From Sphingopyxis sp. (GTDB lineage Bacteria > Pseudomonadota > Alphaproteobacteria > Sphingomonadales > Sphingomonadaceae), in the NCBI RefSeq assembly GCF_019459305.1, contig NZ_JAIBES010000137.1:1-64000 (forward strand): a stretch of DNA of 64,000 bases. Reading direction: 5' to 3'. The first letter of the stretch is position 1; each line of letters opens with the position of its first letter. The notes beneath the pieces were generated by a model. That model was not told the origin of the DNA. It saw only the letters and a list, made by a program, of their open reading frames with translations, and did no database searches. Position numbers and translations under genes: made by a program. Positions 24,122 to 34,974 of the stretch are shown one piece after another.

Positions 24122-26113
24122 ATGCAATGCTACCGGGTCGTCAAGCCGGTCCAGGGGACGGAACAATTCGCGCCTCAAGCGGGTTTGAAGGTAAATCTTA
24201 AGCCCTCATCAGGCAGTTATAGCCATGGCTCAAACCACAACTCGGCAGTCGTCGCGTCACTCGAGAAAAGGGTGCTAGCGCTTCAGAACATCATCCTCGA
24301 GATGATCGCCAAGGGCAAACCTCTGGCCGACACCGCCTCGCGGCTGTGCCTTGAAGCGGAGAAGCTGGCTCCAAGCGCGATTTGTTCGATCCTGACAGTC
24401 GACGACCGCGGCATTATCCACCCCCTCGCCGGTCCAAGCCTTCCTACCGCATATTCTGCAGCGCTTGATGGTATCAAGATTGGCCCCACCACGGGATCTT
24501 GCGGCACCGCCGCCTATCTGCGGTCCGAGGTAACGGTGACGGACATCGAAACGGACTCGCGTTGGGCTGATTATCGGCATCTGGCCTTGCCGATCGGGCT
24601 TCGCGCCTGCTGGTCCAGCCCGATCCTTGACGCGGCTGGCGAGGCGTCCGGCACGTTTGCATTCTACTATCGCGATTGCCGGGGCCCCACCGAAGCCGAA
24701 CGAGAAATCGTCCGGCAATGCGTCCACCTTTGTGCCATCGCTCTCGACCGCGAGCACCGCATGCATGTTCATCGACAGCGCGCCTTCACCGACGCGCTCA
24801 GCGAGCTGCCAAATCGCGCCGCGTTCAATGCGGCGCTGGGCACACTCGATTGCGGCACGCCAGGCGATTGGGCGCTTTTCATCATTGATCTCGATAATCT
24901 GAAGGTCGTGAACGACACCTTTGGTCATCATGCCGGTGACTGCCTCCTGAAGGTCGCAGCGCAGCGCATAGCCAACGCGGTTGCGCCGGATCCGGCCTTC
25001 CGGATTGGCGGCGATGAATTTGCAATCATATTGCAGTCCCCGAACACGCTGGCGGATCTCGAGCGGACGGCCGAGAATATTCTCGCTGTCCTCGCCGAAC
25101 CGGCTCAGTGCGCAGACCATATGATTGTTCCACGCGCCACAATCGGCGGCGCTGCCCTGTCCCCCGGCGACCGGGTCGCGGAGCGCGTCCGCCAGAATGC
25201 CGACTACGCCCTTTATCATGCTAAGGACACCGGGCGCGGAGGTTTTGTGCGCTACTGGCCTGGCCTCGGGACAAATATTACGCGTCGTCTCGGAAGTATC
25301 CGCGATGTCGATGCGGCGCTCCGCGATCATCGGATTGACGCTTATTATCAACCGGTCGTGCGGCTCGACACGCGTGAAATCGTCGGTCTCGAGGCCTTGT
25401 GCCGAATGCGCATCGGCAGCCAGGTCGTTGCGGCCGCCGATTTTCAGGAAGCGACCAATGATGTCCACGTCGCGATGGCGATGACGGCGCGCATGATGGC
25501 GATCGTGGCGGCAGATGTCCGCGCCTGGCTCGACATGGGCATCCCGTTTCAGCACGTCGGCCTCAATGTGTCTTCGGCGGACATGCATGGGGGCATGCTC
25601 GACCGTCGCCTGGCCGACGCGTTCGGACACGAAAATGTCCCGCTCGAGCATGTGATCCTCGAAGTGACCGAAATGGTTTATATGGGCGAAGGCGACCGCA
25701 TCGTTCAGCGCGCAGTCGAAGCGCTGCGCGCCAAGGGTCTGCGCGTCGCTCTGGACGACTTCGGCACCGGCTATGCCTCGCTCACTCACCTGCTGACGGT
25801 GCCGGTCGACATCATCAAGATCGACAAAAGTTTCACTGCCCGCCTTGCGCCGGGTGACGCGAGCCTGGCCATCGTCGAAGGTCTCCTCCAGATTGCGAGC
25901 AAGCTCGATATCCGAGTTATCGCCGAGGGTATCGAGACGGAAGGCCAGGCACGACAACTCCGTGCCGCAGGCTGTCACCTTGGGCAAGGTTACCTATATT
26001 CGAAGGCTGTCGATCGCGATGCGACGACGGCGCTGCTCTTGAGACATGCCCAAGGCCTGACGCGCCCTGCGCCGCTGCAAGCCCGGGCTCGTAAAGCCAT
26101 GCCTCGTCGCTGA
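24122..26113 (+). CDS. GAF-GGDEF-EAL c-di-GMP signalling protein
   Basis: Bifunctional-type protein of 663 aa. A GAF domain covers about residues 45-215 (GPTTGSCGTAAYLRSEVTVTDI), a GGDEF domain about 220-385 with intact signature RIGGDEFAI near 300, and an EAL domain about 395-645 with GLEALCRM, EVTEMV, DDFGTG and IDKSF, plus AEGIETEGQA. Both active-site motifs look complete, so it may make and/or hydrolyse cyclic di-GMP in the cytoplasm. The start at 24122 is the farthest supported one; a GGAAC-N17-GGTT sequence at about 24158-24183 lies inside, so a later non-ATG start is possible. No gene is coupled to it. Confidence 0.9.
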   Translation: MQCYRVVKPVQGTEQFAPQAGLKVNLKPSSGSYSHGSNHNSAVVASLEKRVLALQNIILEMIAKGKPLADTASRLCLEAEKLAPSAICSILTVDDRGIIHPLAGPSLPTAYSAALDGIKIGPTTGSCGTAAYLRSEVTVTDIETDSRWADYRHLALPIGLRACWSSPILDAAGEASGTFAFYYRDCRGPTEAEREIVRQCVHLCAIALDREHRMHVHRQRAFTDALSELPNRAAFNAALGTLDCGTPGDWALFIIDLDNLKVVNDTFGHHAGDCLLKVAAQRIANAVAPDPAFRIGGDEFAIILQSPNTLADLERTAENILAVLAEPAQCADHMIVPRATIGGAALSPGDRVAERVRQNADYALYHAKDTGRGGFVRYWPGLGTNITRRLGSIRDVDAALRDHRIDAYYQPVVRLDTREIVGLEALCRMRIGSQVVAAADFQEATNDVHVAMAMTARMMAIVAADVRAWLDMGIPFQHVGLNVSSADMHGGMLDRRLADAFGHENVPLEHVILEVTEMVYMGEGDRIVQRAVEALRAKGLRVALDDFGTGYASLTHLLTVPVDIIKIDKSFTARLAPGDASLAIVEGLLQIASKLDIRVIAEGIETEGQARQLRAAGCHLGQGYLYSKAVDRDATTALLLRHAQGLTRPAPLQARARKAMPRR

Positions 26114-28092: not shown

Positions 28093-28743
28093 TCACACGC
28101 CAGCACGTGCGAGTTTGCCCGTCGACCCAAGGTCTTGCAATGAAAACGGGGTTAGCAAAGAAATACCTGCCTGCCCCTCTTGCGACCAGCGCACAACGCC
28201 TTCGCGTTCGCCAATAATGCCGAGGACAAACTTCACTCTCAGGCCTTCTTGCAGGCTGCCATCATGGCGGACCATCAGGCCGCGCAGCGAAATATTCTCT
28301 ATCTGAACGTTTCGCGTCCCAAACTCACCCCTGGCAATGGCCTCGGTCGAGCAATGAAGGCGTAGCGGACGGTCGCCGCCCCGGACGCTGTCGGCGAACA
28401 GCCGCACCAATGTGGCCGCACTGTCGATCGGATAGGCAAGCTGCACGCCGCAGTTTTGGCCGTCGTGCCACACGACTTTTCCCTTCAGCCGAATGGCCTC
28501 GGACAAATCAATTTGCAAGTCCGCGCCGGGAGCGATGCGCAACTGGATAGCGAGCATTAGCCCTTCATCGGAAATATTGAGAACCCGCGCGAAGCCCTCT
28601 TCGCCCGCCACTGAAACGCGCGCGACACGAAAGACGCTGCGCTGACGGGGCTGCGAACGCTTGTCGTCACCCGGCGATTGATCGTCGGTAATCGACCCGT
28701 GCCACGGATCGCTGCCGTACGTGTTTAAACTGTGCGTGTTCAT
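28093..28743 (-). CDS. Tandem PilZ-domain protein (c-di-GMP effector)
   Basis: Cytoplasmic protein of 216 aa with two PilZ-like units. The first (about residues 32-115) has the arginine-rich RQRSVFRVARV and NISDEGLML, matching the RxxxR and [D/N]xSxxG cyclic-di-GMP contacts, and ends in CGVQLAYP. The second (about 125-205) has ENISLRGLMV and GVVRWSQEGQAGISLL but its arginine motif is less clear. It is a likely reader of the c-di-GMP made and removed by the GGDEF/EAL proteins nearby. Stands alone between convergent and divergent neighbours; output target unknown. Confidence 0.82.
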   Translation of the reverse strand: MNTHSLNTYGSDPWHGSITDDQSPGDDKRSQPRQRSVFRVARVSVAGEEGFARVLNISDEGLMLAIQLRIAPGADLQIDLSEAIRLKGKVVWHDGQNCGVQLAYPIDSAATLVRLFADSVRGGDRPLRLHCSTEAIARGEFGTRNVQIENISLRGLMVRHDGSLQEGLRVKFVLGIIGEREGVVRWSQEGQAGISLLTPFSLQDLGSTGKLARAGV

Positions 28744-28856: not shown

Positions 28857-29543
28857 TTACTGAGCGCGATTGTCCGCGTCCTGCTTTGCATGCCTCGACA
28901 GGTCGAGCGTCCGCTCCGCTTTGGCGACCAGCGCGACAACCTCGGCGATGCTTTTCAGCCGCAGCTTGGTCAGCGCATTTTTCCGGTGCATCTCCACGGT
29001 TCGCACACTCAGGCCGAGATGATGGGCCGCCAACTTGTTCGGGGATCCGTCGAGCAAGGTTGCAACGACATCCTTTTCACGCGCCGACAGGGAATCGAGC
29101 AGCGCGCGGGCGTGTGATCGTGCCGCCGCGGTTTCCTGAAGCGCGCCCAGCATGCCAAAGGCTGCTGACAGCGCCTGATCGAGCAACCCGCTTTCGAAAG
29201 GTTTCTCCAGAAACTCGATTGCGCCCATCTTTACCGACCGCACCGCCGTCGCGATGTCCCCATGCGCGGTCATCATGATCACCGGCCACAACACATCGCG
29301 GCAGCGCAATTCTACCAGCATCTGGAGACCGTCCATTTTCGGCATGCGTAGATCGAGCAGAATGGGCGCCGGCTTTAACGTCGGCAAATGATCGAAAAAA
29401 TCGTCCGCTGCCGCAAATGGCCACGCCCGAATATGGGATGTGCCGAGCAAGAAATGGAGTGACTGACGAACGTCAACGTCGTCATCGATCACATAGACGT
29501 TTCGGCCAGACGATCCGTCCGGTTCGTCCCGAATTTCGATCAT
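28857..29543 (-). CDS. fixJ: FixJ-type response regulator
   Basis: Two-component response regulator of 228 aa: receiver domain with acidic pocket VYVIDDDVDVRQS (about residues 15-27), phospho-acceptor aspartate in ILLDLRMPKMDG (about 59-70), threonine in MMTAHGD and lysine in FLEKPF; then a LuxR/FixJ helix-turn-helix with LSAREKDVVATLLDG, NKLAAHHLGLSVRTVEMHRKNALTKL. The ATG at 29543 has AGGTG just upstream. The cognate kinase is probably the PAS-histidine kinase at 32087-33619, separated by the GGDEF-EAL/BLUF pair. It may control those c-di-GMP genes, which start divergently about 180 bases away. Confidence 0.9.
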   Translation of the reverse strand: MIEIRDEPDGSSGRNVYVIDDDVDVRQSLHFLLGTSHIRAWPFAAADDFFDHLPTLKPAPILLDLRMPKMDGLQMLVELRCRDVLWPVIMMTAHGDIATAVRSVKMGAIEFLEKPFESGLLDQALSAAFGMLGALQETAAARSHARALLDSLSAREKDVVATLLDGSPNKLAAHHLGLSVRTVEMHRKNALTKLRLKSIAEVVALVAKAERTLDLSRHAKQDADNRAQ

Positions 29544-29720
29544 CGATTCACCTGCAATGGCAACTGCTGTGGCTGGAAGGCGGTGCGCCCTACACACATT
29601 ACGGCGAAGGTTAATAATGGTTGCATGCGGCGCCCCGCAATAACCCGACCTAGCCCTTGCAGTATCTGTCGTGCATGCCGGACGCTTGAGGCATATGAAT
29701 GCCGCCGAAGGGGGAACAAG

Positions 29721-31658
29721 TTGCGATCGCAGGACTATATCGAGGAGCCCGGCACCGAGACCTCGCAAGCTTCCTATCGCCGCCTGGCGATTGCGCGGTA
29801 CAATATTTTGGACAGCGCCGCCGAGCGCGATTTCGATAATCTGACCGTGCTCGCAGCTAAGGTGTTCGGGGCCAGTTTCGCCGCGATCAGTTTTATCGAT
29901 CGCACCCGGCAATGGTTCAAAGCCGAACACGGCCTCGGTGTTGCCGAGACCCCAATCGAGCAATCCTTTTGCGCGCACGCGCTTGAAACTCCCGGTATAT
30001 TCCTGGTCAAGGACGCCTCCCTGAACCCGATGTTTGGCGCAAATCCGCTCGTGACCGGTCATCCCCATATCCGCTTTTATGCCGGCATGCGGGTGCTTGC
30101 GAATGACAGGACACCGATCGCCGCAATATGCGTGATGGACCCGGTGCCACGCCCCGACGGCTTGACCGAAGCCCAACGACTGACGCTGCAAATTCTAGCG
30201 TCGCAGGTCGAATCGCTGCTTGAACTGCGGCATGCCGTAATTCTGCAAAAGCAGCAGGTGGCGCTGCAAAGGACGTTGTCGCGGCAGCTTCGGCACATGT
30301 CGAACCACGACGAACTGACCGGTTTGCCCCGCCGCAACCTGTTCCGCGAAAAGCTCGATGCGGCGCTGGAAGAGGCCAAGCGATCGGGGCGCCGTGCGGC
30401 GGTCATGACCGTCGATGTCGACCATTTCAAACAGATCAACGATAGTTTTGGCCATGATGTTGGCGACGCGCTGCTCTGTGCCTTTGCTAAACGGTTTCGG
30501 GCTGCCACGCGCAAAACCGACACCGTGGCGCGTCTTGGCGGCGACGAATTTGGGCTCGTCATTCCCGACATCGGCCCCAGCGACGACCTGAAAATGCTCG
30601 TGCGTTCGCTAGGTGATCGCTTGCACAAACCGTTCAAGCACAATGGGCGGGTCATCGATTGCGAGGCCAGCATCGGTGTCGCAATCTATCCTGACCACGC
30701 GACCTCCGCCGACGATTTGATCAAGTGCAGCGACCTTGCTCTGGCCGCTGCCAAAAGATCGCGCGGCTGCTCGGCCATCTTTTCGCTCGCGATGGCGGAG
30801 GATTTCGACCGTCAGGCGCGTATACTTGAGATCGCGCGTGCGGCGATCTCCGCAAATGAATTGATCCCGCATTATCAGGCCAAGGTGAGCCTGGCGACGG
30901 GCCGGATCGTCGGCTTTGAAGCATTGGCCCGCTGCAAACAGGCTGGCGCGCCGCCGCTGCTGCCCGAAATGTTCGCGCACGCCTTTAGCGACGGCAAACT
31001 CGCGGCTGATATCAGTCGGCAAATGCTGGCGCAGGTGCTCGATGACATCCGGCACTGGGTCGATGTCGGCGCCGCGTTCGGCCATGTCGCGATCAACAGC
31101 AGCGCGACCGATTTCAAAAGCGATGATTTTGGCGAACGGCTGCTGGACGCTATCGACACCCGCGGACTGGACCCGGCGATGATCGAACTTGAAATCACCG
31201 AAGGCGTCTTCCTGGGACGTGGGACCGAGCAGGTGACGCGGGCGCTGGCGTTGCTAAGCGAGCGCGGGGTGCGCATCGCGCTCGACGACTTCGGGACGGG
31301 CTTTGCGTCGCTGACCCATTTGAAGCAATTTCCTGTCGATGTAATCAAGATCGACCGCTCGTTCGTCGCTGGCGTTGCGACCCGCCCCGACGATGCGACC
31401 ATCGTGCGGGCGCTGATCGGGCTCGGGAAAAGCCTGGGGATCGAAACCGTGGCCGAAGGCATTGAAACGGTTGAGCAGGCGTCCTTCCTGCGCCGTCACG
31501 GATGCGATCTGGGGCAAGGTTTTTTCTACTGCACGCCTGCCCCGGCAGCCGACGTTCCGTCGCTGATCAAGCGAGCGATGCCGGATTATATGCCGGCGAA
31601 ACTTCACATGCCTGCGAAACATCCAACAATGCGCGGAAGCCTCTCGCTGGCATGCTGA
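29721..31658 (+). CDS. GAF-GGDEF-EAL protein coupled to BLUF
   Basis: Protein of about 645 aa. GAF domain about residues 20-175 (FGASFAAISFIDRTRQWFKAEHG and EQSFCAHAL are typical of the GAF form in sensory cyclases), GGDEF domain about 185-360 with intact RLGGDEFGL, EAL domain about 370-625 with GFEALARC, EITEGVF, DDFGTG, IDRSFV and AEGIETVEQA. Both enzyme sites look intact. A TTG at 29721 with GGGGGA upstream is the best start because it precedes the conserved part; upstream in-frame ATGs lack ribosome sites. Its stop overlaps the BLUF gene start by seven bases, indicating coupled translation and probable joint action. Confidence 0.87.
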   Translation: MRSQDYIEEPGTETSQASYRRLAIARYNILDSAAERDFDNLTVLAAKVFGASFAAISFIDRTRQWFKAEHGLGVAETPIEQSFCAHALETPGIFLVKDASLNPMFGANPLVTGHPHIRFYAGMRVLANDRTPIAAICVMDPVPRPDGLTEAQRLTLQILASQVESLLELRHAVILQKQQVALQRTLSRQLRHMSNHDELTGLPRRNLFREKLDAALEEAKRSGRRAAVMTVDVDHFKQINDSFGHDVGDALLCAFAKRFRAATRKTDTVARLGGDEFGLVIPDIGPSDDLKMLVRSLGDRLHKPFKHNGRVIDCEASIGVAIYPDHATSADDLIKCSDLALAAAKRSRGCSAIFSLAMAEDFDRQARILEIARAAISANELIPHYQAKVSLATGRIVGFEALARCKQAGAPPLLPEMFAHAFSDGKLAADISRQMLAQVLDDIRHWVDVGAAFGHVAINSSATDFKSDDFGERLLDAIDTRGLDPAMIELEITEGVFLGRGTEQVTRALALLSERGVRIALDDFGTGFASLTHLKQFPVDVIKIDRSFVAGVATRPDDATIVRALIGLGKSLGIETVAEGIETVEQASFLRRHGCDLGQGFFYCTPAPAADVPSLIKRAMPDYMPAKLHMPAKHPTMRGSLSLAC

Positions 31659-32062
31659 TCTCGACGCTCTATGTGAGCCGCAGCCTCATCGAACCGGCGC
31701 GCGCAACGGCCGCCGTGGCCGATTTGGTGGAGGCGTCGATCGCAAACAATCTGCGCCGCGACATAAGCGGCGCATTGTTGTTCACCGGGGATCACTTCGC
31801 CCAGATAATGGAAGGCCCCGAGGATAACATCGCGGCACTGATGACGTCGATTGAGCACGACGAACGCCATCAGAGCGTGACGGTTATCCGTCGTACGCCG
31901 ATCCGCGAACGAAAATTCCAGGATTGGGCTTTGGCGTACAATGGGCCGTCGTTGTTTATCGCACGCCACGTTGCGCGCGTGTTGGCAAGTCCGCCCGGCG
32001 TGGACAAGCAGCGCACCGCGCGCTGGCTGACCGATATGATGTTGGAACTCATGACTGTGTGA
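31652..32062 (+). CDS. BLUF-domain blue-light photoreceptor
   Basis: Short BLUF protein of 136 aa: an FAD-binding blue-light sensor with about 95 residues of core and a short helical C-terminal cap. Key residues: flavin tyrosine Y7 in STLYVSR, asparagine N33 in SIANNLRR and glutamine Q51 in GDHFAQIMEGPED; W in KFQDWALAY near residue 93. The N-to-Q spacing (18) is standard, while the Y-to-N spacing is two residues longer than in PixD/AppA. It overlaps the end of the GGDEF-EAL gene by seven bases. As it has no output domain, control of that enzyme in trans is the inferred role. It is convergent with the kinase gene, 24 bases away. Confidence 0.88.
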   Translation: MLISTLYVSRSLIEPARATAAVADLVEASIANNLRRDISGALLFTGDHFAQIMEGPEDNIAALMTSIEHDERHQSVTVIRRTPIRERKFQDWALAYNGPSLFIARHVARVLASPPGVDKQRTARWLTDMMLELMTV

Positions 32063-32086: not shown

Positions 32087-33619
32087 CTATCCCGCGGTCT
32101 CCTCGACGTCAGCCCGTGCAATCGGCAGCGAGAAGCGGAATTCCGAGCCTGCATCGGACGAATGTTCCAGCCAGATGCGACCGCCATGTGCCTCGATGAT
32201 CGTGCGCGATATCGACAGGCCGAGGCCCATGCCGCCTTCCTTGATCGTGTCGGACCAGGTGAAAATGCCTTGCGCCGCTTCGGCCGAAACGCCCGGCCCC
32301 GTATCGCGCACTGCAACAACGATCTCGTCAGCGGTGGTTTCGGCCGAAATCTTGACTTCCTGCTGCTCCAGGTCCGACACCGCCTCGCAGCCGTTCCGCA
32401 GAAGGTTGATAACGACCTGCTGAACTTGGGTACGGTCCGCCATTAGCTTCAGATTGGCAGGGATGGCATAGCGTAATTCGGTATCGATCGAGCAGGCACT
32501 GCGCACCAGATTGATCGACTCCTTGACGACGGCTTTCAGCTCGAAGGTTTCGCTGGCGCGAACGCGGCGATCGGTCAGGTCGCGCAGCGTGCGAATGATC
32601 GCGCCGGCGCGTTTGGCGGCAATCTCGATCGAGTTCAGCGCCTGCCGCACCGGGGCATTGTCGATATCGCTGCCGTCCACCAGGCGCAGGCATCCGGCGG
32701 CGTAATTGGCAATCGCACTGAGAGGCTGATTGAGCTCGTGCGCCAAGGTCGTCGCCATCGTCCCCATAGCATTGACGCGCGATGTATGCACCAGTTCGGT
32801 TTGCAAGGTTTGCAGCGCCGCCGCGGCCTCCTGGTGTTCAGTGACGTCATACCCTTCGCAAAATATGCCAACAATATTCAGATCGGCATCGCGCACTGGT
32901 TCATAAACGAAATCGGCGTAGCGCCGAACCATCCGCCCGCCCTTTGCACCTTGGAGATCGAAGGCGACCGTTTCGCCGCGATAGGGCACACCCGTCTGGA
33001 ACACCCGGTCGAGTATGGCGACAAAGCCCTGCGCGGCAATCTCTGGCATCGCCTCGGCCACCGTCAGGCCATCGAGCTTTCTGTCGCCGACGAACCGGCG
33101 ATAGGATTCATTAGTAAAGGTGATCCGGTGATCGGGGCCTTCTGACGTCGCGATGAAGCCCGGCGCATGTTTGTACAGCGCGCGCGATTCGGCCGGATTG
33201 CTGCGCGGGCGCACGGCCTGGCCGTCAAGAGGATAGAAGGACAAGATATGCTGGCGACGCGCCCCTGCATGGTCGCGCACCGGATGGAGCAAAGCGCTCA
33301 TGATATATGCCGACCCATCGCGCCGACGACAGGTCAGTTCCCATGTGGTTGGCTGACCAGCCTCGAGCAGCGTCTCGATTGTCGCGACGCTATCCGCATC
33401 GGTAATGTCCGAGAACACCTCCGCCGCGGATCGCCCCAGCACCTCGGTATGCGAGAGCGCGGCCATGGCGAAAAAGCTGGGATTTGCGATCGCGACACGA
33501 TGGTTTTCGCGGGCGACGTCGATAAACAATATTGGAATGCAGGAATTCTGGATCGAAATTACCAAAGGACCAGCGGGATTGCCCCGATCGCCGCCCTGCG
33601 GTTCGATTGTCGCTGTCAT
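32087..33619 (-). CDS. fixL: FixL-like PAS sensor histidine kinase
   Basis: Soluble sensor kinase of 510 aa without membrane segments. Two PAS regions (about residues 20-135 and 150-270; FIDVARENHRVAIANPSFF and RITFTNESYRRFVG), a dimerisation/phosphoacceptor helix with histidine in TTLAHELNQPLSAIANYA (about 293-310), then the ATP-binding domain: N-box QQVVINLLRNGCEAV, G1 VRDTGPGVS and G2 GGMGLGLSISRTI. The first PAS lacks the cysteine motif of LOV photosensors, and I cannot show a heme ligand. It probably pairs with the FixJ-type regulator at 28857-29543. Start ATG at 33619. Confidence 0.88.
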   Translation of the reverse strand: MTATIEPQGGDRGNPAGPLVISIQNSCIPILFIDVARENHRVAIANPSFFAMAALSHTEVLGRSAAEVFSDITDADSVATIETLLEAGQPTTWELTCRRRDGSAYIMSALLHPVRDHAGARRQHILSFYPLDGQAVRPRSNPAESRALYKHAPGFIATSEGPDHRITFTNESYRRFVGDRKLDGLTVAEAMPEIAAQGFVAILDRVFQTGVPYRGETVAFDLQGAKGGRMVRRYADFVYEPVRDADLNIVGIFCEGYDVTEHQEAAAALQTLQTELVHTSRVNAMGTMATTLAHELNQPLSAIANYAAGCLRLVDGSDIDNAPVRQALNSIEIAAKRAGAIIRTLRDLTDRRVRASETFELKAVVKESINLVRSACSIDTELRYAIPANLKLMADRTQVQQVVINLLRNGCEAVSDLEQQEVKISAETTADEIVVAVRDTGPGVSAEAAQGIFTWSDTIKEGGMGLGLSISRTIIEAHGGRIWLEHSSDAGSEFRFSLPIARADVEETAG

Positions 33620-34020
33620 CCCACTTATCCCTGGGCCATGCCGCCCTCCAACAGAGCGGCCTGCTGATCCGCGCTGTCGCTCAGCGCCGTCGATAAAATC
33701 TGCGTGCGCGCAGGATAGCATGTTTCCGCGATTGGCGATGCGAAGTTGTGCAGCGGCCCATACCGTAGTTTTCCCGTGTCGCGTGGTTGACTGTGGTTAA
33801 CACCGGGGCCGCTATCCGTTTCTTTCCGAAGGTTGGTCCCTTCGAACGACGGCGGATCAGCCCCACTTGATCCGCCGTCACCAATTCCAGTGCGCACGTG
33901 CCGGCACAGCAATTCAACGGTCGATTTGCGGCGGCTCAACCCGTCGCAAAGTCGCCCGGTCTTCATCGCTTGTTAGCCACACGGCGGCACTGCACCTTGA
34001 ACATCCGATTTTGGAAATTC
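33620..34020. other. Divergent intergenic region
   Basis: About 400 bases between the divergent kinase and PAS-GGDEF genes. It should hold both promoters. No clear GGAAC-type element, repeat or gene was recognised. Confidence 0.4.
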
Positions 34021-34974
34021 ATGATGAAACAGTGGACTAACTCCGACATCTCGGCGGCGGAGACCTTGAGACTGATTGCGGAGCATTCGATCGACGTCAT
34101 CGCGCAGGTCAGCGACGACATGCGGTTCCGCTATATCTCCCCATCGTCCGAACGGCTGTTTCAGCGGTCCGTGGAGGACGTCATTGGACGGCACATCTCC
34201 GAATTCGTGGTCCCCGAAGATCTAGCGATTATCGCTGCGGCACGGCAAGACGTGCTGCGGCAAGCGGTCGATAATACGACCGTGACGGTCCGGGTAATCC
34301 GCGGCGATGGCAAGATCATTTGGGTCGAGGTCGCGTCGCGGCTGATCGCGACGGCGCCGGATGGCGCGCCCGGTGACCGGGCGGTCATCATGCGCGACAT
34401 TTCCGATCGCAAGGCGCTGGAGGACGAGCTGCGATCGATGGCGATGCGCGACGGACTTACCGGCCTCGCCAACCGCCGCGCCTTCGACGAAGGGCTGGAA
34501 AGCCAGTGGCAGCGCACATCGGCCGAAAAGTCGCAAATGTCGCTGCTACTGATCGACATCGATCATTTCAAAGAGTTCAATGACACCAACGGCCACCAGG
34601 TCGGCGACGACTGCCTGCGCAGTGTCGGAGCAGCCTTGCAATCCTCGCTCGCCGGTTCGGGCGGTCTGCTCGCCCGTTATGGCGGCGATGAGCTGGCGAT
34701 CGTGCTCGGCGATGCCGACAGCCGCAGCGCAGCATTGACGGCCGAGCGCGCCCGCGCGGCCGTTGAAGCACTGGAAATCCCGCACGGCGCGACGACAAGC
34801 GGTGTGATTACGATCAGTCTTGGAGCAGCGACCGCATTTGCCCGCGACGGCGGATCGGTAGCGATGCCGCACGCGCTCCTCGCATCGGCCGATCGGGCTT
34901 TATACATGGCGAAGGAAGCGGGCCGAAACTGTTGTCGCACGACGTTGCTGTTCGCCAAAACTGCATCAGGTTGA
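34021..34974 (+). CDS. PAS-GGDEF diguanylate cyclase
   Basis: Diguanylate cyclase of 317 aa: PAS domain about residues 15-135 (IAEHSIDVIAQVSDDMRFRYI; VIMRDISDRKALEDEL linker), then a GGDEF domain about 145-310 with the signature RYGGDELAI (GGDEL variant, accepted in active enzymes), catalytic-metal LLIDIDHFKEFND and ALYMAKEAGRN. No membrane segment, so a cytoplasmic sensor. No obvious inhibitory RxxD site was seen five residues before the signature. The ATG at 34021 has GGA upstream. Starts divergently from the FixL-like kinase gene. Confidence 0.9.
   Translation: MMKQWTNSDISAAETLRLIAEHSIDVIAQVSDDMRFRYISPSSERLFQRSVEDVIGRHISEFVVPEDLAIIAAARQDVLRQAVDNTTVTVRVIRGDGKIIWVEVASRLIATAPDGAPGDRAVIMRDISDRKALEDELRSMAMRDGLTGLANRRAFDEGLESQWQRTSAEKSQMSLLLIDIDHFKEFNDTNGHQVGDDCLRSVGAALQSSLAGSGGLLARYGGDELAIVLGDADSRSAALTAERARAAVEALEIPHGATTSGVITISLGAATAFARDGGSVAMPHALLASADRALYMAKEAGRNCCRTTLLFAKTASG

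Follow-up and report, generated by a model that had tools for sequence, protein, structure and literature searches.

Which partner does a stand-alone blue-light receptor serve when its gene overlaps that of an enzyme of cyclic di-GMP (c-di-GMP) metabolism and the two lie between the genes of a two-component system? This question is raised by a locus in a stretch of 64,000 nucleotides from Sphingopyxis sp. (contig NZ_JAIBES010000137.1, positions 1 to 64,000; hereafter the window), where a gene for a short BLUF protein (31652–32062, plus strand, 136 amino acids) follows a gene for a GAF-GGDEF-EAL c-di-GMP enzyme (29721–31658, plus strand), the pair lying between a FixJ-like response regulator and a FixL-like histidine kinase, with a PilZ gene beyond the regulator. 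Our answer, tentatively preferred from comparison of sequences, is that these genes may form a four-component blue-light, phosphorelay and c-di-GMP module, in which the BLUF protein would touch both the enzyme and the kinase.

The BLUF protein has PF04940 as its sole Pfam match at E 0.001 (E 4.3e-25; 88.1 bits against a curated cut-off of 25), and the enzyme matches GAF (E 1.5e-10), GGDEF (E 9.9e-45), and EAL (E 5.6e-62) in a single frame. The enzyme stops with TGA at 31656–31658, while the BLUF ATG at 31652 lies inside its last codons, in another frame; the shared sequence ATGCTGA (31652–31658, plus strand) has exactly 7 bases. Both the GAF-GGDEF-EAL architecture and the seven-base overlap with a stand-alone short BLUF had been proposed in the initial annotation, and both are borne out. 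Its enzyme start, a TTG at 29721, is supported as well. The open frame extends back to 29583, but the ratio of nonsynonymous to synonymous substitution (dN/dS) is 1.23 for the 60 residues at the start of this longer frame, 46 of which precede position 29721, compared with 0.15 in GAF, and both the TTG and the GGGGGAA preceding it are conserved in two close relatives; hence, 29721 is the better start, and a start at 29583 is ruled out. Alignment to solved GGDEF-EAL enzymes extends across GGDEF and EAL, motifs included. The GGDEF and EAL motifs are present together with an RxxD, placed like what we take to be an I-site, and a degenerate enzyme is ruled out by the intact motifs.

The two close relatives, found by a related-locus search, are Sphingopyxis bauzanensis DSM 22271 (L062) and a Novosphingobium metagenome-assembled genome (L063). 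Each has a BLUF protein 82% and an enzyme 84% identical to those of the window, the same 7-base overlap, and the order PilZ, regulator, enzyme, BLUF, kinase (in L063, PilZ and the kinase are cut by contig ends); as the two hardly differ from one another, they amount to approximately one witness. With overlap and gene order conserved, an artefact or a chance overlap is ruled out. We also surveyed 131 BLUF loci: the window, L063, 29 loci with flanks of at most 1.5 kb (30 minus L006, a double of L107), and 100 fetched stretches, of which 96 were taken in rank order by likeness to the window's BLUF and four from another listing. The survey is biased towards kin of this BLUF, lower-ranked or unlisted places being left out, and its domain profiles were built from the window's own proteins, so that remote kinases or EAL proteins could have escaped detection. 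Here, 22 loci have a GGDEF-EAL gene immediately upstream of BLUF and in the same orientation (in 18 by itself, in 4 together with kinase and regulator); a kinase and a LuxR-type regulator are nearby in 15 (11 without and 4 with the enzyme); 4 loci have a kinase only, 3 a regulator only, and 91 none of these neighbours. The nearest candidate BLUF start in the 22 linked loci is found between 35 bases inside and 15 past the enzyme stop. Since GGDEF-EAL genes stand directly upstream in so many loci and the starts cluster near the stop, the coupling is not a chance one.

The linked enzymes differ in their N-terminal parts, which read as GAF (the window's group), PAS (several), MHYT-like (five), or nothing recognisable (two). 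The enzyme tree, which includes 41 unlinked GGDEF-EAL proteins (40 from 14 genomes and the window's other one), places 13 linked enzymes in one clade (SH-aLRT 93) and the window's four in another (99); the linked enzymes of L076, L087, L140, L107, and L120 fall elsewhere. The linkage label changes 7 times on this tree, compared with 18 in shuffles, and at least three changes are forced by starred branches. Of 12 genomes outside the close orthologues, nine contain a better match to the window's enzyme than their BLUF-linked one, the exceptions being G161, G072 (narrowly), and G313. One ancient inheritance of the pairs is not favoured, as the linked enzymes lie in separate parts of the tree; most simply, the coupling would have arisen more than once, although the three or more forced changes could also reflect a single gain with two losses. 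In two further loci, L135 and L155, counted among the 91 without neighbours, GGDEF-EAL-BLUF is encoded in one open frame with the BLUF domain at the C-terminus. These fusions come from two genera and measure 668 (L135) and 715 (L155) amino acids.

Such recurrence with different enzymes and the two single-chain relatives make direct contact between enzyme and BLUF plausible, and it is plausible that light acts on the enzyme in trans, as the initial annotation suggested. What is not supported is the enzyme as the main partner, because the BLUF clade is tied to the FixL/FixJ-like system and one locus kept the system after losing the enzyme. The BLUF tree (131 rows, 112 columns, many forks unresolved) places the window's protein in a starred clade of 49 rows (support 97/85), which holds all 15 kinase-plus-regulator rows and all three regulator-only rows, compared with none of the 82 rows outside. 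The enzyme-only label occurs both inside and outside this clade, with 6 changes against 17 in shuffles. The telling locus is L104, a second copy in S. bauzanensis, where regulator, BLUF, and kinase are arranged as in the window while the enzyme is eroded to remnants: a piece 63% identical to EAL residues 592–648 (E 3e-23) and, more weakly, one like GAF residues 124–142 (E 0.003). The eroded GGDEF-EAL stretch occupies 5600–6300 of L104, between regulator and BLUF.

These observations could be explained if the FixL/FixJ-like pair were the sole target of the BLUF, which would provide a trans blue-light input to a kinase with no cysteine in its own LOV-like PAS, the GGDEF-EAL gene having been inserted later as a co-expressed output. 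Linkage to kinase and regulator is a clade trait (15/49 vs. 0/82), L104 lost its enzyme and retained the rest, and a minus-strand regulator, plus-strand BLUF, and minus-strand kinase follow each other without an enzyme in L066, L080, L089, and L090. Against it speak the retention of the 7-base overlap and the recurrent association of BLUF with GGDEF-EAL, fusions included, as well as the small number of independent events (two supported pairs, see below); we consider this explanation rather unlikely, while giving it weight. The genes for kinase, regulator, enzyme, and BLUF share one strand in L076.

The kinase (32087–33721, minus strand, convergent with BLUF) contains an N-terminal PAS with a resemblance to LOV, followed by PAS_4, HisKA, and HATPase, and the regulator (28857–29543, minus strand, divergent from the enzyme; start set by homology with L063) contains REC and a LuxR-type HTH; the two are of the FixL-FixJ type, and neither figured in the initial annotation. 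The H-box in HisKA reads HELNQPL. By pattern, a kinase with the FixL-type H-box H[ED][LI]NQP is found in all 15 kinase-plus-regulator loci, although the sensor parts differ; the nearer kinase of L066 reads HELNQPV. Kinases were compared across 24 chosen genomes, most of them selected for holding such loci and hence not random. Five matches of at least 39% identity (39–85%, self excluded) reach the first PAS of the kinase, and all are beside BLUFs (L105, L104, L099, L076, L066); a 51% match in G161 is without the first PAS and not beside its BLUF. The N-terminal PAS has as its best match the double-PAS sensor protein 3ewk (E 2.5e-12), which is not a LOV protein, followed by many LOV domains (E 4e-6 to 1e-5). 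In the column of the LOV cysteine, by comparison with phototropin LOV2, it has Ala. A photo-active LOV domain in the kinase is therefore not supported, although Cys-less LOV domains can signal (PMC4682037). Beside BLUFs of the same clade, L106 and L082 have kinases with a receiver-like N-terminus, and L082 has a KaiC-like gene upstream, as read from sequence.

Divergence between the window and S. bauzanensis is uneven along the module. The BLUF core (dN 0.168) and the first PAS of the kinase (dN 0.173) evolve faster than GGDEF, EAL, the histidine kinase core, and REC (0.04–0.05), the range of the other domains being 0.025–0.081. The parallel divergence of PAS and BLUF core could be expected if the BLUF served the kinase pair alone, but the short tail of the enzyme (0.170) and the first 50 residues of the kinase (0.469) are fast as well. 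With dN/dS of 0.17, the BLUF core is under purifying selection. The C-terminal segment of BLUF, residues 94–136, differs in 1 of 43 residues, compared with 23 of 93 in the core; since dS is also low there (0.20 vs. 0.98), the conservation is weakened as proof of an interface.

Whether this BLUF signals in the usual way depends on one residue. The window's protein retains Tyr7, Ser9, Asn33, Gln51, and Trp92, including the flavin-contact residues Tyr7, Asn33, and Gln51 of the BLUF family; the assignment of Tyr7 needs a two-residue loop insertion (HMMER placement against 2byc), the HMMER alignment to AppA starting at residue 10. From that residue the alignment is gapless, and Leu94 stands at the position of Met106 of AppA, the conserved signalling methionine of strand beta-5. 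We regard this methionine as required for the usual output but not for membership in the BLUF family. Without Met106, AppA retains the red shift while its signalling is broken (PMC4630285, available part); PixD without Met93 also retains the red shift and is locked in the signalling state (PMC5899715, available part). As the window's BLUF has leucine here, normal light output cannot be assumed.

The 49-row clade has Leu at this position in 35 rows, Met in 10, and other residues in 4, whereas all 82 rows outside have Met. By neighbourhood, Leu is found in 15/15 kinase-plus-regulator, 3/3 regulator-only, and 2/4 kinase-only rows, in 1/18 rows with an enzyme and without the system nearby (L064), and in 14/91 rows with none of these neighbours, which are 14 of the 26 such rows within the clade. 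The contrast between the system-linked and the enzyme-linked rows would favour a BLUF devoted to the kinase pair; the neighbourless and kinase-only rows do not, and by these counts Leu is a trait of the clade that spans the system-linked rows without being confined to them. A Fisher test uncorrected for phylogeny gives p 0.0006 for Leu against two-component linkage (regulator-only rows included), which overstates the association; the corrected test has two supported independent pairs, a number with which significance is impossible. A search for Leu-type BLUFs in wider samples of best-scoring loci showed Met in 29 of 30 loci from the phylum, the remaining one being unreadable because of a gap, and in 27 of 27 from the class; such sampling is biased towards ordinary BLUFs, and at least two genomes are common to both samples. 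Three loci of the family score 179–183 bits, compared with 92 for the next one outside it, those three being rows of the profile itself. Among plasmid BLUFs off the tree, those of Sphingobium TKS and RC1 have Leu, and those of Sphingosinicella and Aureimonas have Met. On plasmid pTK1 of Sphingobium sp. TKS, typed as conjugative, PilZ, a Leu-type BLUF, two response regulators, and a MASE1 protein occur together (L267, 3476–8056).

Given Leu94 at the AppA Met106 position and the published effects of methionine loss on AppA and PixD, the protein might be an adaptor with a lost or altered switch, light-blind or constitutively signalling. We regard this as improbable: of the 49 clade rows, 46 retain the Tyr of the pocket, 48 the Asn, 47 the Gln, and all 49 the Trp, which argues for continued flavin photochemistry; in addition, the core is under purifying selection.

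Another division of labour would have the BLUF act on the enzyme alone, in the style of PapB-PapA, with the two-component system controlling transcription of the pair from the divergent promoter and making no contact with the BLUF. Regulator and enzyme are divergent and 177 bases apart, and the region between them (29544–29720, no strand assigned) is a candidate shared promoter region; a conserved regulator site or strong conserved palindrome was sought in it, and nothing convincing was found. In G161 the enzyme-BLUF pair is intact, with PilZ, at 0.33 Mb (L064), and homologues of the kinase (50%) and regulator (56%) are 160 kb away, at 0.49 Mb; the fusions and the trans pair PapB-PapA, described below, also agree with an enzyme-directed BLUF. 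The persistence of BLUF and system without the enzyme in L104 and 10 other kinase-plus-regulator loci does not, nor do L092 and L099, where the enzyme is absent and the genes for kinase, regulator, and BLUF share one orientation. We find a BLUF devoted to the enzyme alone distinctly unlikely. A transposase-like gene, as read from its open reading frame (L164, 11272–11994), adjoins the relocated kinase and regulator genes of G161.

In the four-component module that we tentatively prefer, the BLUF would be the blue-light input subunit, with the FixJ-like regulator, the GAF-GGDEF-EAL enzyme, and the FixL-like kinase as its companions and PilZ beside them. Through the 7-base overlap, it would be translated in step with the enzyme and bind it in trans, probably via the C-terminal helix and the stretch that follows beta-5, thereby adjusting the turnover of c-di-GMP in the manner of PapB with PapA. 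This surface would probably also engage the kinase, which would be the older of the two partners, and a single photoreceptor may thus set both the phosphorelay output and the c-di-GMP level. The overlap, the repeated pairing, the fusions, and the example of PapB-PapA are the grounds for proposing the enzyme contact; those for the kinase contact are the clade-wide neighbourhood and its survival without the enzyme.

Several observations weigh against this proposal. Three of the four loci with all parts (the window, L063, and L105) are close orthologues and represent about one event. As many as 26 of the 49 clade rows have no enzyme, kinase, or regulator nearby, hence neither partner is obligatory in cis. 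In the 24 genomes, kinase matches at 31–35% over a similar span are also found at sites for which no BLUF is known. Nor need light be the main input, since a GAF sensor is built into the enzyme and two PAS domains into the kinase. The leucine sits exactly where loss of Met breaks the output of AppA and alters that of PixD, and recombination may be a partial cause of the C-terminal conservation, given the low dS. As to the history, a sphingomonad Leu-switch clade might have left the Met-based output, become a trans photosensory subunit of FixL-like kinases (of the window type, with a LOV-like PAS without Cys), and then in Sphingopyxis been coupled also to a dual GGDEF-EAL enzyme; we offer this sequence of events with considerable doubt. 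If the proposal is true, one photoreceptor subunit serves two output systems, and the fused GGDEF-EAL-BLUF, the overlapping pair, the pair with kinase, and the kinase alone form a natural series for partner choice by BLUF proteins. Because Leu occurs naturally at the Met switch, a debated step in signalling by BLUF proteins could be tested directly by a one-residue exchange in a protein of an environmental bacterium.

The surroundings are also rich in c-di-GMP genes. Between 24122 and 34974 the window contains, around the pair, a second GAF-GGDEF-EAL gene (24122–26113), the PilZ gene (28093–28743, minus strand), and a PAS-GGDEF gene (33898–34974); downstream in S. bauzanensis, only the end of PAS-GGDEF was matched. 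The PilZ protein, likely a c-di-GMP effector, is the same neighbour in the two close relatives. A PilZ gene lies within 4 kb of BLUF in 9 of 132 loci (the window, L063, L105, L064, L088, L092, L104, L132, and L140), seven of them in the clade of the window's BLUF. The ordinary BLUF of the genus (L001, 445–3217, in the window's own genome at G000:C41; loci L004–L029) is in a general-stress locus; the L001-type locus encodes a PhyR response regulator together with two sigma factors of the ECF type that match PhyR_sigma2. Among the 29 short-flank loci, 16 have a receiver gene approximately 1.1–1.3 kb downstream of the BLUF start.

In the literature searched, mostly without subscription papers and with no search aimed by name at Leu in the Met position, we found no description of a locus with short BLUF, GGDEF-EAL, and FixL-FixJ genes or of Leu-type BLUFs. 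Its components have known counterparts. Of BLUF proteins, 64% are short and 34% carry EAL, and two short BLUFs are known in Sphingobium xenophagum (PMC4844311, available part); BLUF units also occur in histidine kinases, where they are poorly characterised (PMC6798134, available part). Photoreceptors of c-di-GMP networks have been catalogued (PMC8846402, available part), and in Erythrobacter c-di-GMP is under light control by a LOV kinase and a phytochrome (PMC12172448, available part). BlrP1 and YcgF/BluF carry BLUF and EAL in one chain, whereas here they are separate proteins in two genes; in the fusions L135 and L155, unlike in BlrP1 and YcgF/BluF, the BLUF domain follows GGDEF-EAL. One BLUF-GGDEF/EAL protein, of Methylomicrobium alcaliphilum, is already listed in the available part of PMC4844311, which does not give its domain order.

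The contrast with fused BLUF-EAL proteins, drawn in the initial annotation, holds as far as the separate proteins are concerned, but it overlooks a published trans system, PapB-PapA of Rhodopseudomonas palustris, where a short BLUF acts on a separate EAL protein involved in c-di-GMP metabolism (PMC8846402, available part); trans action of light is thus not new in kind. The window's BLUF resembles PapB in having no further domain and a candidate c-di-GMP partner in trans. PapA, as described there, is a solo EAL protein, whereas the candidate partner here is the adjoining GAF-GGDEF-EAL enzyme, the genes overlap, the flanks are FixL/FixJ-like, and Leu replaces the signalling Met. PixD-PixE and AppA-PpsR are similar in that a BLUF protein signals to a separate partner, but the partner families are others, and the available part of the source describes no coupling to GGDEF-EAL genes (PMC5899715). 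On plasmid pAU20d of Aureimonas sp. AU20, outside the order, GGDEF-EAL and BLUF genes overlap by 4 bases, a likeness known from annotation only; that BLUF is of the Met type, and no two-component system is listed within 5 kb in a gene table that describes itself as incomplete. Finally, the HELNQPL kinase, the REC-LuxR regulator, and an N-terminal PAS matching LOV domains recall FixL-FixJ and the LOV histidine kinases; the window's PAS differs in its best match, 3ewk, and in the Ala of its Cys column, and the photoreceptor would be supplied, if at all, by the separate BLUF protein.

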